64,000 nt of DNA. Source: Siphonodentalium dalli. Taxonomy: Eukaryota > Mollusca > Scaphopoda > Gadilida > Siphonodentaliidae. The DNA is taken from contig CP136069.1 of the NCBI GenBank assembly GCA_032622095.1, positions 89,208,618 through 89,272,617 of the forward strand, read 5' to 3'. The position numbers and the translations under genes are program-made. This document shows, in pieces, positions 8,191-60,599 of this stretch. Under the pieces are notes generated by a model. It worked only from the letters and a program-made list of their open reading frames with translations. It ran no database searches and was not told the origin of the DNA. The first letter of the stretch is position 1; the number at the start of each line of letters is the position of its first letter.

Positions 8191-8644
8191 GGGTTAAAAT
8201 TTATTGAAAGGTAATTTTCCATGGATTGCTCAGGGGTGGTGGAAAAAAGTTATGTACACGTAGGCGGGGGTGGGTGGGTCATCATAAGCTCAAAAATAAA
8301 ATAAAAATTCACAAGCTGAAATTTATATTCTCCTGCCTTTTTATGTGTACGCTTACCATGTATGGTGCACATAATGCCGACGTCCGGATCAACCGTCCGT
8401 CGTTCGTTCGTCCGTCCGGGTTAAAATTTATTGAAAGGTAATTTTCCAGGGATTGCTCAGGGGTGGTGGAAAAAAGTTATGTACACGTAGGCGGGGGTGG
8501 GTGGGTCATCATAAGCTCAAAAATAAAATAAAAATTCACAAGCTGAAATTTATATTCTCCTGCCTTTTTATGTGTACGCTTACCATGTATGGTGCACATA
8601 ATGCCGACGTCCGGATCAACCGTCCGTCGTTCGTCTGTCCGTCT
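8191..8644. repeat. 227-bp tandem duplication
   Basis: Two nearly identical units (8191-8417, 8418-8644) run from GGGTTAAAATTTATTGAAAG to CCGTCCGTCGTTCG. Only a few differences were seen, for example TCCATGG versus TCCAGGG, so the duplication is young. The second unit runs on into the reversed array arm. Confidence 0.85.
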
Positions 8645-17885: not shown

Positions 17886-19689
17886 GGTTACACTGGTGTA
17901 AATAAGGTTCCGAGTGACATCTAGCGGATGCGGGAGGAATATATAGGAGAGAATAAAATAGACACTGGGCCCTGATTGGTCAATAGCCTTGTGTGCTTTT
18001 CACATAAAAAAATCATCACACCTCTTCCCTATGATTTCCCATAGGTAAAATAACCATTGGCACAGGAATTAACCCTTTGTAGTGAAGTTTGAATTTTTTG
18101 GTGTGGTCTAAAATATGACTGTATTTTTTTATGCGGTTCTGACACTAGTTACGAAAACATAAGATTTAAAGGCGAATTCCCTGCTAGACAGACATGATTT
18201 TTTTGTGTAAAAAGTTTCCCAAAATGTAAATTTTTCAGATTTAAAGAAAACTTTGGACCCAACATTTATATTGCCAACACTATACGCTAAAACGTTAGCA
18301 CTGAGGCCTATGGAAAACATTTACACCAGTGTAACCTAAAGGGAAAAAATAGCTTTTTATCATTTTTGATTCCTGGGAGTCACTTTAAAGCATTTTAATG
18401 CATTTTACAGAGCCTGGTCTTTCAGTCCAATGAATATCTCATGCTCGATGTGGCTATTCTTGCTGCTGATGCCTTCTTTCACTTACATCAGCCAAAAAAA
18501 TAGTAAGATTTTTCATAAAAAATGCCAATTTTTCAAGGTATTTTCAAAAAAATTCAAGGTGGTAATAGTCACATGATAATGCAAATGACCCATAACATGG
18601 GCATGTCAACGACACATATATCAATTGTTATAAGAACCTAATTTAACAAGTATTTTGGATTTTATAGCCAGTGATATACAGATATATATCATAAAAGTGT
18701 GTCATTTCCACTGGTGGGTATGGTCATTTGAAGGTTAATAGCACTAAAACTTGGACACATTTAAGAAAATGCTTCAGCAATTCAAAGAGAGCATATCTTT
18801 ATTCAACTAATTCAATATACACCCACATCCAGTTATCTTGGATCACCCTTGCAGACCTGAAAATGTCATATTTTATTCTTCAATGTGCTGATAAAGTCAT
18901 GCGCTTGATGCTCAGCTGATCAGATCTGGACTCAATGACCTCACATCACCAGAAGTTCTCTCATGGAAAGAATATTGAACAGTCTTCCATAGCTGATCCA
19001 AGTTTGCAACACCAGACCCCTAAAACTGAGTGAAAATGGGGCCTGAACATGACTGGTGGTGGAAAATTGTGCTTTTTTGATGAATAATTTGTTAAAGGGG
19101 GTGGGGTTAAATTGTGTGTGATAAATAAAGAACCACAGACGTGATATTGTTTTTGAACACATTTTTTCCATGGATGGGCAATTCTGAAGAAATGTAGGGA
19201 GTTACAATTATTCCGCGAAAAAGCGGGCTATCGCTTTAGGTTACACTGGTGTAAATAAGGTTCCGAGTGACATCTAGCGGATGCGGGAGGAATATATAGG
19301 AGAGAATAAAATAGACACTGGGCCCTGATTGGTCAATAGCCTTGTGTGCTTTTCACATAAAAAAATCATCACACCTCTTCCCTATGATTTCCCATAGGTA
19401 AAATAACCATTGGCACAGGAATTAACCCTTTGTAGTGAAGTTTGAATTTTTTGGTGTGGTCTAAAATATGACTGTATTTTTTTATGCGGTTCTGACACTA
19501 GTTACGAAAACATAAGATTTAAAGGCGAATTCCCTGCTAGACAGACATGATTTTTTTGTGTAAAAAGTTTCCCAAAATGTAAATTTTTCAGATTTAAAGA
19601 AAACTTTGGACCCAACATTTATATTGCCAACACTATACGCTAAAACGTTAGCACTGAGGCCTATGGAAAACATTTACACCAGTGTAACC
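17886..19689 (-). mobile_element. composite element D1 with direct terminal repeats
   Basis: A 1.8-kb unit flanked by a 4-bp target duplication TGAA (17882-17885 and 19690-19693). It carries near-identical direct repeats of about 455 bp at 17886-18338 and 19239-19689, around an 900-bp core without coding capacity. Each repeat starts GGTTACACTGGTGTAAAT and ends with its reverse complement. The sequences flanking each repeat on the inside (TAAA, TTTA) do not match TGAA, so the composite, not each repeat, appears to have inserted. Strand is assigned relative to D2, which matches its reverse complement. The 63-residue ORF repeated in both ends is a by-product. Confidence 0.75.
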
Positions 19690-22463: not shown

Positions 22464-22715
22464 CCTTTCAATGACTGGAGCTTCGTGAAATTTTACAAAA
22501 TCCCTGTGCCAATGCATTCTCTTATATATGCGAGTCTCCCATAGGGAGCCTTGCATATATATGAGAATACATTGTCTAACAAAATAGTTACCATGACCTT
22601 GTAAGCCAGTGCATTCTCTTATATATGCAAGGCTCCCAATGGGATTCACATATAAGAGAATACGCTGGCACATCATCTTTAATGCTGCACCAGCGCAGCT
22701 CCCATCATGAAAGGG
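22464..22715. repeat. family E double-hairpin element, complete
   Basis: TTAA-flanked (22460-22463, 22716-22719). Ends CCTTTCAATGACTGGAGC and CTCCCATCATGAAAGGG. Inside are two hairpins with CATTCTCTTATATATGC arms. The 116-residue minus ORF is a by-product. Confidence 0.75.
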
Positions 22716-37410: not shown

Positions 37411-38670
37411 GCATGTTTGTTAGCTCAACTTACTTTTGTAAGTTTGAGCTATTGCCATGGCTTGGCGTCCGTCGTCTGTGTGTGCGTGTGTCTGTGTGTG
37501 CGTGTGTCCGTCAACAATTTCCTTTGGCGCGGGCTACAGGTCGTACCTTTGGTCTGATCTTTATGAAATTTTGCATGAATGTTGACATTGACATGTAGAT
37601 GGGAACGAGTCATTTTGGGGTCATTCGGCCAAAAAACATGGCCGCTGGTGGCCATCTTGGATTTCAAAATTCAATCCATTGGCGCTGGCTACAGGTCGTG
37701 CTGTTCGTCTGATCATCATGAAATTTGTCATGGATGTTAATATTGACATGTAGATGGGAACGAGTCATTTTGGGGTCGTTCGGCCAAAAATCATGGCCGT
37801 CAGCAGCCATCTTGGATTTTACTCTTTGCATGACTAAATCCTTTGGCGCAGGCTACAGGTCGTAGTTTTGATCAGAACTTCATGAAATTTGTCATGAATA
37901 TTGATATTGACATGTATATGGGAACGAGTCATTTTGGGGTCATACGGCCAAAAAACATGGCCGCTGGCAGCCATCTTGGATTTCAAAATTCAATCCATTG
38001 GCACGGGCTACAGGTCGTACTGTTTGTCTGATCATCATGATATTTATCATGGATGTTAATATTAACTTGTAGATGGGAACGAGTCATTTTGGGGTCGTTT
38101 GGCTAAAAAACATGTCCGCCAGCAGCCATATTGGATTTTACTCTTTGCATGAATAAATCCTTTGGTGCGGGCTACAGGTCGTAGCTTTGGTCGGAACTTC
38201 AAGAAATTTGTCATGTGTGTTAACAATGACATGTAGATGAGAAACGAGTCATTTTGGGGTCGTTCAGCCAAAAAACATGGCCGCCAGCAGCCATCTTGGA
38301 TTTTACTCTTTGCATGACTAAATCCATTGGCACAGGCTACAGGTCATACCTTTGATCAGATCATTATGAGATTTGTAAAGGCTGTAGATGGGAACAAGTC
38401 ATTTTGGGGTAATTTGGAAAAAAACATGGCTGCCGGGTGGCCATTTTAGAATTTACTCTTTGCATCAATAAATCCTTTGTCACACCATAATCACCACATC
38501 CCTGATCCGATCATTATGAAACCTGTTATGAATGTTGATATTGACATGAACATCTAGTCTTACTAAGACATTTCAATTAGCACTTTTCCTATTCCTCCAT
38601 TTACTGTCGACCATTAAATTATTCCCCTACCTAAGTTGAGCTACAGTGTCATTGACACTTTCATTTTAAA
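37411..38670 (+). repeat. tandem array, six units alternating about 154 and 165 bp
   Basis: The leader TTAGCTCAACTTACTTTTGT plus CGTCCGTCGTCTGTGTGTG precedes units with GGCTACAGGTCGTAC, GGGAACGAGTCATTTTGGGG (37601, 37755, 37920, 38075, 38240, 38389) and ATGGCCGC..AGCCATCTTGGAT. Spacing alternates, suggesting a two-unit higher-order repeat. It closes with AAGTTGAGCTACAGTGTC and TTTCATT. Confidence 0.75.
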
Positions 38671-58512: not shown

Positions 58513-58516
58513 TAAA

Positions 58517-60309
58517 GGTTACAGTGAAGTAATTATTTCCCATAGGCCTCAGTGTTAACATATAATGGCCTGCAGCCCTGACTATCCACGAATTGTGGTA
58601 AATGAGTACATGGTGACCGGAATTGGCATCTGCGCAAAGTTTCTGCATGAAAAAAATCATATCGTCGAGCATGGAATGTACCTTTAAATTTGGGATTTAT
58701 AATCGAGAGTCAGAATTGCATGAAAAAAATATTGACATTTTTCACCTCACACCAACAAAATTAAATCTAGGAACCACGTGCTTTACAATGTGCCAATGTT
58801 TTGTTTGGAGTCTGAAATTTCAAGAGGAGTGATTGCATGTATTTTATATGTTTAAATATCGAAACTACTATTAACCAACCAGAGCCCAGAATTGTTTTAA
58901 TTCTCTCCTGCATCTTGGTCCAAAATCCGTTGGAGGGCGCTACCAATCGAATTACTTCACTGTAACCTAAAGTGACAACAACGTCAATGACATGCCATCT
59001 GAAAATGACACAAATCGGTCACTGGACTCTTCACATTTGAAAATAAAATACAAAATCTCTATCCATGACTTTGTTTTCGTCTTATTAACCCTTTCCTGAC
59101 CCCACCCCTGTTTACAATTGCAACACAAAATATCCTAAAATGAACACGAAAAGTCACCATGTGAGGTCCATGTCGATAAAGTAAACGATGGTAGCATACA
59201 TACCCATCATTTGTGTGAAAGCTGACCGATTTCTCTCTGAGAAAATATGGACGATGGTTCGCCTGATAAACATGGACACGCTGGAGCTTGAATTGGGCGC
59301 ACTTGACAAATTCTGAGTCCTGGTAAACGAAATTTTGGCAAAAACTGAAGTTTTGAGTGCAGCAGAATGATTATGTGCCTATATGTATGTGCATGGAAAC
59401 AGCCACATCACTCAAACACACCACCGTGTTACACTTTTTGTCGACAAGCCACCTCAAGCAGACTAATTGGCTGCCATTTAACCCTGAACTGGTCATGTTT
59501 TACATCAAATTTTAGAGACCTGCCACAGATAGCGATGTAGTTTGCTCTCATGGCTAGTCGAAAAGCCTTTATTTCAGTTGTGTACTGACCCTCGATGTTC
59601 AGTTCGTGATTTGTTACCATGACATTCATTAAAGGTACACATATGGGTTCATAACGGACAAAAAGGGGAGATTTTCGAGGTGAAAATTTGAAGCAAATAT
59701 TGTCCCAGATGGGTTAATATTGGCTTCTCATTGATTACCACCGACTCAAATAATATAATATGCCACGTGCTACAAGTTCTCTAATTGTTTGTTGGTCAAC
59801 GTTTATAGGAAACCCACCACTGGGCCCAAATGAGAAAAAGGATCATTTTTGTGCTTTAGGTTACAGTGAAGTAATTATTTCCCATAGGCCTCAGTGTTAA
59901 CATATAATGGCCTGCAGCCCTGACTATCCACGAATTGTGATAAATGAGTACATGGTGACCGGAATTGGCATCTGCGCAAAGTTTCTGCATGAAAAATATC
60001 ATATCGTCGAGCATGGAATGTACCTTTAAATTTGGGATTTATAATCGAGAGTCAGAATTGCATGAAAAAAATATTGACATTTTTCACCTCACACCAACAA
60101 AATTAAATCTAGGAACCACGTGCTTTACAATGTGCCAATGTTTTGTTTGGAGTCTGAAATTTCAAGAGGAGTGATTGCATGTATTTTATATGTTTAAATA
60201 TCGAAACTACTATTAACCAACCAGAGCCCAGAATTTTTTTAATTCTCTCCTGCATCTTGGTCCAAAATCCGTTGGAGGGCGCTACCAATCGAATTACTTC
60301 ACTGTAACC
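58517..60309 (+). mobile_element. composite element D2 with direct terminal repeats
   Basis: Same architecture as the element at 17886 but strongly diverged in sequence. The repeats at 58517-58969 and 59859-60309 differ at only a few positions. They begin GGTTACAGTGAAGTAATT and end with the inverse. The target duplication is TAAA at 58513-58516 and 60310-60313. Patches shared with reversed D1 include CCCATAGGCCTCAGTG near the start and TTAATTCTCTCCTGCATC versus TTTATTCTCTCCTATATA near the end. The 890-bp core has no ORF of note. It sits in the intron between EGF exons 57656 and 61786, inside the right end of an older TTAA element. Confidence 0.75.
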
Positions 60310-60599
60310 TAAAGGGTAACGCTGGATGATCTGATTTGTTCGCCCCCCAAACTACTTTGAAAACAAAAACAACAGTTTAGTTCATTCATAGTCTGGATGT
60401 GTCTAAGTAAAGAGTATATCATAACAACATATTTCACATATAGTGTCATGCAAGTTCTATTAAATATTATAGAGTGATGTATGGTAAAAAAAACTATCGT
60501 CTTTATTTTCAACCAAGGCATTTTCTCATTTGTGGCGCATGTACTTTTCCAAGAAAATGTCTTGAAAAACCATTATGTATCTTAATTTAAGAACATTAA

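Follow-up and report, generated by a model that had tools for sequence, protein, structure and literature searches.

The window analysed here, a stretch of 64,000 nucleotides of Siphonodentalium dalli DNA, carries two elements, D2 and D1, in which an internal region (INT) lies between two terminal direct repeats (R, or LTDR); their features are collected in Table 1. D2 is 1793 bp long (58517-60309; R(451)-INT(891)-R(451)), and D1 (17886-19689) has the arrangement R451-INT902-R451 on the minus strand. Every R of both elements has 18 perfect inverted end bases, GG...CC. The two R of D2 differ at positions 82, 139 and 378 (3/451), in agreement with the initial annotation, which had noted that they differ at few sites, and those of D1 show 0 differences. 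The same annotation had assigned both elements to one plan, and this was borne out by the common R451-INT-R451 structure and the 4-bp duplications (TTCA for D1 and TAAA for D2). Its statement that D2 aligns in patches to reversed D1 holds for R, which is homologous over the full length (63% identity, E 1.6e-40; z 62 versus shuffles), but not for INT, for which alignment revealed no significant similarity between D1 and D2 (z 0.7 versus shuffles). No similarity was found, either, between the D2 INT and the INT of families A or B described below. D1 and D2 are two long-separated families.

Table 1 Features of D2 and D1 in the window
Feature	Position in window	Strand	Basis or remark
D2 left target site duplication, TAAA	58513-58516	none	sequence read
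D2 left terminal direct repeat (R, LTDR), 451 bp	58517-58967	+	18-bp perfect inverted ends GGTTACAGTGAAGTAATT
D2 internal region (INT), 891 bp, TAAAG...CTTTA	58968-59858	+	sequence comparison
D2 right terminal direct repeat, 451 bp	59859-60309	+	3 mismatches versus left R
D2 right target site duplication, TAAA	60310-60313	none	sequence read
D1 right terminal direct repeat, 451 bp	17886-18336	-	sequence comparison
D1 internal region (INT), 902 bp, TAAAG...CTTTA	18337-19238	-	sequence comparison
D1 left terminal direct repeat, 451 bp	19239-19689	-	identical to right R; target site duplication TTCA outside

The genome searched comprised 2.23 Gb in nine contigs. The searches gave 47 matches for D2-like DNA (35 of 1298 candidates scored) and 47 for D1-like DNA (21 of 897 candidates scored); since few candidates were scored, the copies analysed are mostly the closest ones, and the loci studied are mainly best-scoring copies and not a random sample. 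Additional D2 loci were taken from the first 100 places of an end-pattern search, in which the 18-bp D2 end occurred 1504 times in the genome. The existence of many more copies means that the D2 plan is not due to chance. Among the copies fetched and parsed, D2 occurs as solo R, R-INT-R and R(INT-R)n and D1 as R-INT-R and R(INT-R)n; the largest number of INT in any D1/D2 locus read end to end was six.

A perfect 4-bp target site duplication (TSD) was present in 54 of the 69 loci whose outer ends could both be read, a set that omits L033, L057 and L080 (the flanks of L032 equal those of L033, and those of L056 are nearly those of L057), and it was seen around loci with 0 to 6 INT. The 15 loci lacking a perfect TSD include the autonomous L061 and an array with 8 transposase matches on contig C2 (178 Mb), and some of them are near misses, such as L052 (CAAA/TAAA) and L055 (a 5-bp TTTAA match). 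The first base of the duplication was T in 49/54 cases and the last base A in 45/54, giving TNNA in 40/54, with C preceding the duplication in 20 and G following it in 24 of the 54. TNNA is a column preference: over the 54 loci, a palindromic target beyond base make-up was not found, as the frequency of complementary paired positions did not exceed that predicted from the columns. For the solo R L028, the empty form of the host repeat occurs five exact times at 37606-38245 of the window (paralogous copies), which shows that the insertion duplicated CAAA; the flanks of the D1 copy L052 are almost those of L028. For D2 itself, none of 41 matches spanned the joint of an empty site, and the repeat flanking D2 stops about 10 bp short of the insertion. 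At 37520-38539 of the window, a dispersed repeat is arrayed in tandem (about 155/319 bp), and L028 and L052 occupy the same position within relatives of that repeat.

Relatives with a longer INT were detected through a search for the shared end together with a protein search, and these comprise three families that have the same plan as D2 with an INT of about 4.0 kb: family A (L066-L070, with L068 being R451-INT4039-R451), family B (L061 and L062+L073, carrying exactly the 18-bp ends of D2, with TGAA as the TSD of L062+L073) and family C (L071 and L072). The length of R is 451 bp in D1, D2, A and C and 450 bp in B. D1 shares 18/18 end bases with A though the whole R is 60% identical, and D2 shares 18/18 with B though the whole R is 70% identical; from the shared ends only, we infer that family B moves D2. 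The INT of A, B and C contains a PF20700 transposase (E from 1e-28, for part of L061, to 9e-48, for L068; the Pfam label of the domain is Mutator-like) and, on the opposite strand, a PF05551 nuclease (E 7e-14 to 1e-9). According to our reading of the proteins, the putatively catalytic D, D and DxxH residues of the transposase are kept in four of four sequences and the final E in the three that reach that far. The S, H, H, E and N positions of the nuclease are conserved in 4/4 sequences, and the family A nuclease (PF05551 E 3e-13) matches I-PpoI with an E value of 5e-4. The transposase frames of A and C are open, with listed lengths of 561-577 aa (about 600 aa in a search with the B transposase), and both B copies that were read have an interrupted frame. 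That search scored 111 of 528 candidates and yielded 111 matches; many have open frames, and several lie in tandem with a step of approximately 4480-4495 bp. A PDB search with the B transposase returned nothing relevant, and the structure models of nuclease and transposase were unusable (mean pLDDT 37 and 39).

Because relatives with the same plan and 18-bp ends carry a transposase and an I-PpoI-like His-Me nuclease, D2 is best explained, with high probability, as a nonautonomous KolobokP DNA transposon of the LTDR-INT-LTDR type, and D1 is a nonautonomous KolobokP family like it. In the accessible parts of the publication on KolobokP (Kojima & Bao 2022; PMC9587614), the LTDR is described as approximately 450 (or 660) bp long with its own TIR of up to 18 bp and 5'-RR...YY-3' ends, the TSD as 3-5 bp depending on the family, and the INT as encoding a DDD/E transposase and an antisense I-PpoI-like His-Me nuclease; nonautonomous families of 1.7-3.3 kb in oyster, solo LTDR and multimers with TSD are also reported there. 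The present elements have inverted ends of their own (5'-RR/YY-3'), a 4-bp TSD within the range of 3-5 bp, the corresponding LTDR length, a DDD/E transposase with the opposite-strand I-PpoI-like His-Me nuclease, solo repeats and (LTDR-INT)n-LTDR multimers with TSD. They show no difference of kind from KolobokP, and D1 and D2 are new families of this known lineage.

The initial annotation had likened the copying of D2 to that of LTR elements, and a gene-less LTR-type element (TRIM or retrozyme) copied via RNA would share with D2 the R-INT-R plan, the solo R, the tandem arrays and the 4-bp duplications, as LTR retrotransposons, TRIMs and retrozymes also have terminal direct repeats that are alike at insertion, solo repeats and arrays. 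TRIM-like elements are known from bivalves, and the available portion of their description reports direct repeats, solo repeats and tandem arrays with no clear primer site for biv-TRIM (PMC6934838). However, nothing in D2 points to an RNA intermediate: each R is bounded by 18-bp inverted repeats, its inner junctions are symmetric (CTTTA-R-TAAAG), and R is absent at INT-INT junctions. The INT, read by eye, lacks a tRNA-primer-like TGG start, and the primer binding site and polypurine tract of LTR elements and TRIMs were not seen at its TAAAG...CTTTA ends in D1, D2, A and B. Moreover, no RNA family, the hammerhead ribozyme of retrozymes included, matched the window at the Rfam gathering score, and a transposase is encoded by the partner elements found in this genome. 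The LTR or retrozyme reading was therefore rejected on the grounds of anatomy and partner genes, its probability being close to nil.

Two other kinds of element invite comparison with the KolobokP families. MITEs are, like the solo R, short with TIR and TSD, unlike D2, which has an INT between two R. The bacterial IS26 carries its transposase gene inside the repeat itself and undergoes targeted insertion without a TSD. IS26 pseudo-compound transposons, which are compared with KolobokP in the accessible text of PMC9587614, resemble D2 in that direct repeats flank a segment and arrays share repeats, whereas the KolobokP genes here lie between the repeats and not within them.

The INT ends read TAAAG...CTTTA in D1, D2, A and B and TATAG...CTATA in C. 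They form a 5-bp inverted repeat in five of five families, despite the unrelated INT of D1 and D2 (58968-58972 and 59854-59858, and 18337-18341 and 19234-19238, in the window), and each of them looks like half of the favoured target. For comparison, TATA...TATA ends are described for one clam family in the part of the KolobokP article at hand (PMC9587614). The inner junctions of D2 recur in the genome, with 147 exact R-to-INT and 237 exact INT-to-R matches, so that the conservation of the TAAAG/CTTTA junctions in other copies, proposed as a check in the initial annotation, was confirmed. These regular ends bear on the idea that D2 is an accidental composite, in which two independent short transposons (R) trapped host DNA: solo R with their own TSD at 7/10 D2 solo loci and the unrelated D1 and D2 INT would suit it, but the TAAAG...CTTTA ends in 4/5 families, with TATAG...CTATA in the fifth, are too regular for random TSDs (TAAA in 4 and TTTA in 2 of 54), autonomous families of the same plan exist, and left and right R mostly co-vary. 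The conserved INT ends and the co-varying R led to the rejection of the accidental composite, which is very improbable.

INT-INT junctions devoid of R have small footprints, with 0-4 bp lost. The locus L010 has the structure R-INT-INT-R-INT-R, in which one junction is CTTTAAAG and an extra TAAA precedes the next R. Genome-wide, short INT-INT junctions numbered 243 for D2 and 419 for D1; two forms (CTTTATAAAG and CTTTAAAG) were present among the 100 listed for D2 and five among the 100 listed for D1. In the consulted portion of PMC9587614, up to four abutted INTs are described in the text, and INT-INT structures are ascribed to LTDR excision.

The initial annotation had drawn its argument on repeat identity from the contrast between D1 and D2, a comparison that proves little alone because these are two long-separated families, and the question was addressed within the D2 family with 23 one-unit copies (L080, which has the flanks of L014; L039, a diverged multimer; L003 and L015, which are not plain R-INT-R; and other multimers were omitted). 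The left and right R differed at 5.43 positions within a copy versus 10.51 between copies, and 0 of 10,000 permutations of partners gave a value as low; an earlier run with 16 copies gave the same pattern. The claim that identity is higher within than between copies is thus upheld within the family, and left-right divergence as large as that between copies, named beforehand as a refuting outcome, was not seen. For sites 73, 74 and 95, 27 cells had the minor allele on both repeats and 0 on one side; when all seven sites at which four or more loci carry a minor allele are counted, 41 cases were both-sided versus 10 one-sided (among them site 377 in 4/4 loci, site 246 in 3/11 and site 136 in 2/4). 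Site 95 was linked to five INT positions with r2 1.0, the mean r2 being 0.57 over the 55 pairs tested. In total, one or more copies showed a left-right difference at 102 sites, of which 19 recurred in more than one copy versus 13.9 expected, a value as high being reached in 5.4% of simulations; at 4 of the 19, the left/right state agreed between copies. This recurrence is borderline, and some heterogeneity may be inherited. Left-right differences amounted to 0.0060 per repeat site versus 0.0085 for private INT changes. From these two values, there was no strong homogenisation after insertion in one-unit copies. The former value is not above the latter, and the D2 repeats appear to be identical or almost identical when inserted. 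In D1, 5/9 one-unit copies have identical R, and the family is too young to say more. The data support the core idea that each active lineage keeps its repeats alike or makes them so; of the original argument, the regenerated or kept-alike repeats stand within the family and the LTR mechanism does not.

Seven arrays contained at least three whole units. Variants private to an array and present in a subset of its units were found at two sites in each of L041 (units 1 and 4 of 6) and L042 (units 3-5 of 5), and in the D2 array L083 with nine R (six variants, e.g., in units 7-8 of 8), and this spread to some units of the same array indicates that these three arrays grew in place. In L043, L044, L058 and L060, every such variant was confined to one unit; L060 had 21 of these, and its end units stand apart as clearly diverged. 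These diverged ends and the four of seven arrays with single-unit variants only indicate that homogenisation is incomplete. Arrays of autonomous elements were also found, namely a 3-unit array with the TSD TGAT, one on contig C3 (about 3,218,828-3,291,729; 16 transposase matches, TSD CAAA), one on contig C7 (about 202,891,621-202,932,406; 9 transposase matches, TSD TATA) and the 8-match array on C2, which has no TSD (TTAT/TAAA).

These data address a question left open in the accessible text of PMC9587614, namely how the composite plan of KolobokP, a eukaryotic DNA transposon, is maintained: the two R mostly change together within a lineage, the left and right R of one-unit copies diverge once inserted, and some arrays expand in place. 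According to the mechanism proposed here, the transposase of autonomous relatives would bind the R ends and move everything between any two R, be it one R, one unit or several. Exchange between R copies would keep both R alike while the element is active and would add and remove R-INT units, the nuclease may provoke this exchange, and after silencing, the two R of a copy would drift apart. The alternative is a replicative one-R circle (copy-out, paste-in, or similar to a translocatable unit) formed at each transposition, with both ends derived from one R; this is close in spirit to the regeneration of ends proposed in the initial annotation, but via DNA and not RNA. Such a circle would fit the apparent identity of the repeats at insertion (0.0060 versus 0.0085), the R-less junctions with 0-4 bp lost and the IS3-like footprints noted for KolobokP in the available part of PMC9587614. 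It is nevertheless doubtful, since 3/7 arrays grew in place after unit divergence, for which exchange accounts without a circle, and the entry of a circle into unrelated solo R would be expected to yield one-sided haplotypes and broken R-INT linkage, neither of which was seen at the main subfamily sites. Exchange between R copies is the likelier cause of R identity and probably, if by no means firmly, the actual one; gene conversion or exchange between the repeats, listed in the initial annotation as a refuting explanation, is thus preferred here, although exchange was never seen happening.

All of the 100 listed D2 INT-INT junctions (100 of 243) lie on contig C2 at 86,964,885-87,072,079. They belong to an INT-rich locus of 214,137 bp that extends from an R at 86,963,553 to an R at 87,177,689, with TGTA outside both; the two R differ at 9/451 positions. 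Exact R-to-INT and INT-to-R junctions occur there once each among the listed matches (at 86,963,992 and 87,177,228, respectively), in a search for exact junctions that would miss an altered internal R. The first half of the locus contains at least 100 R-less INT-INT junctions, and the locus is INT-rich where sampled. It is also impure: at two later points, INT is broken by other DNA, over at least 2,466 bp (87.120 Mb) and at least 644 bp (87.150 Mb). We read this locus as one D2 insertion that lost inner R copies, expanded and subsequently took in other elements; given the TNNA preference, the probability of a chance TGTA match is not negligible. With an R and a matching duplication on each side, it would be the birth record of a satellite. 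To our knowledge, such records are seldom kept. Separately, the region C1:275617681-275734587 and beyond (L092) is a satellite of D1 INT that repeats about every 898 bp, with interspersed R-holding units and several R-less junction forms.

More speculatively, and with rather little probability, a dedicated KolobokP route with a homing-type nuclease might rewrite both repeats of an active element from one template. The TGTAACC/TAAAG junction and its mirror would serve as the address, the loss of R would restore the CTTTATAAAG palindrome, which might be cleaved, and INT would run away into satellites such as the 214-kb locus whenever the route fails. The fused INT ends form a palindrome, and it is our guess that the nuclease reads it. 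Compared with the portions of PMC9587614 at hand, where no strong target preference is reported and the term "satellite" is absent from the main text in a term search, the additions made here are the TNNA preference, the 5-bp inverted INT ends, the left-right co-variation test, the arrays of up to 16 transposase matches and a single locus whose INT tandems include 100 junctions or more.

The window also contains other repeats. A near-palindrome of about 100 nt (CCAATGCATTCTCTTATATATG...) is present in five copies (at 22497, 47086, 57874, 61282 and 61504), which are MITE-like. An inverted repeat pair of 294 nt (6863-7156/8624-8917; 97% complementary, 1467 nt apart), alongside which lies a 227-bp tandem at 8191-8643, may be another transposon.
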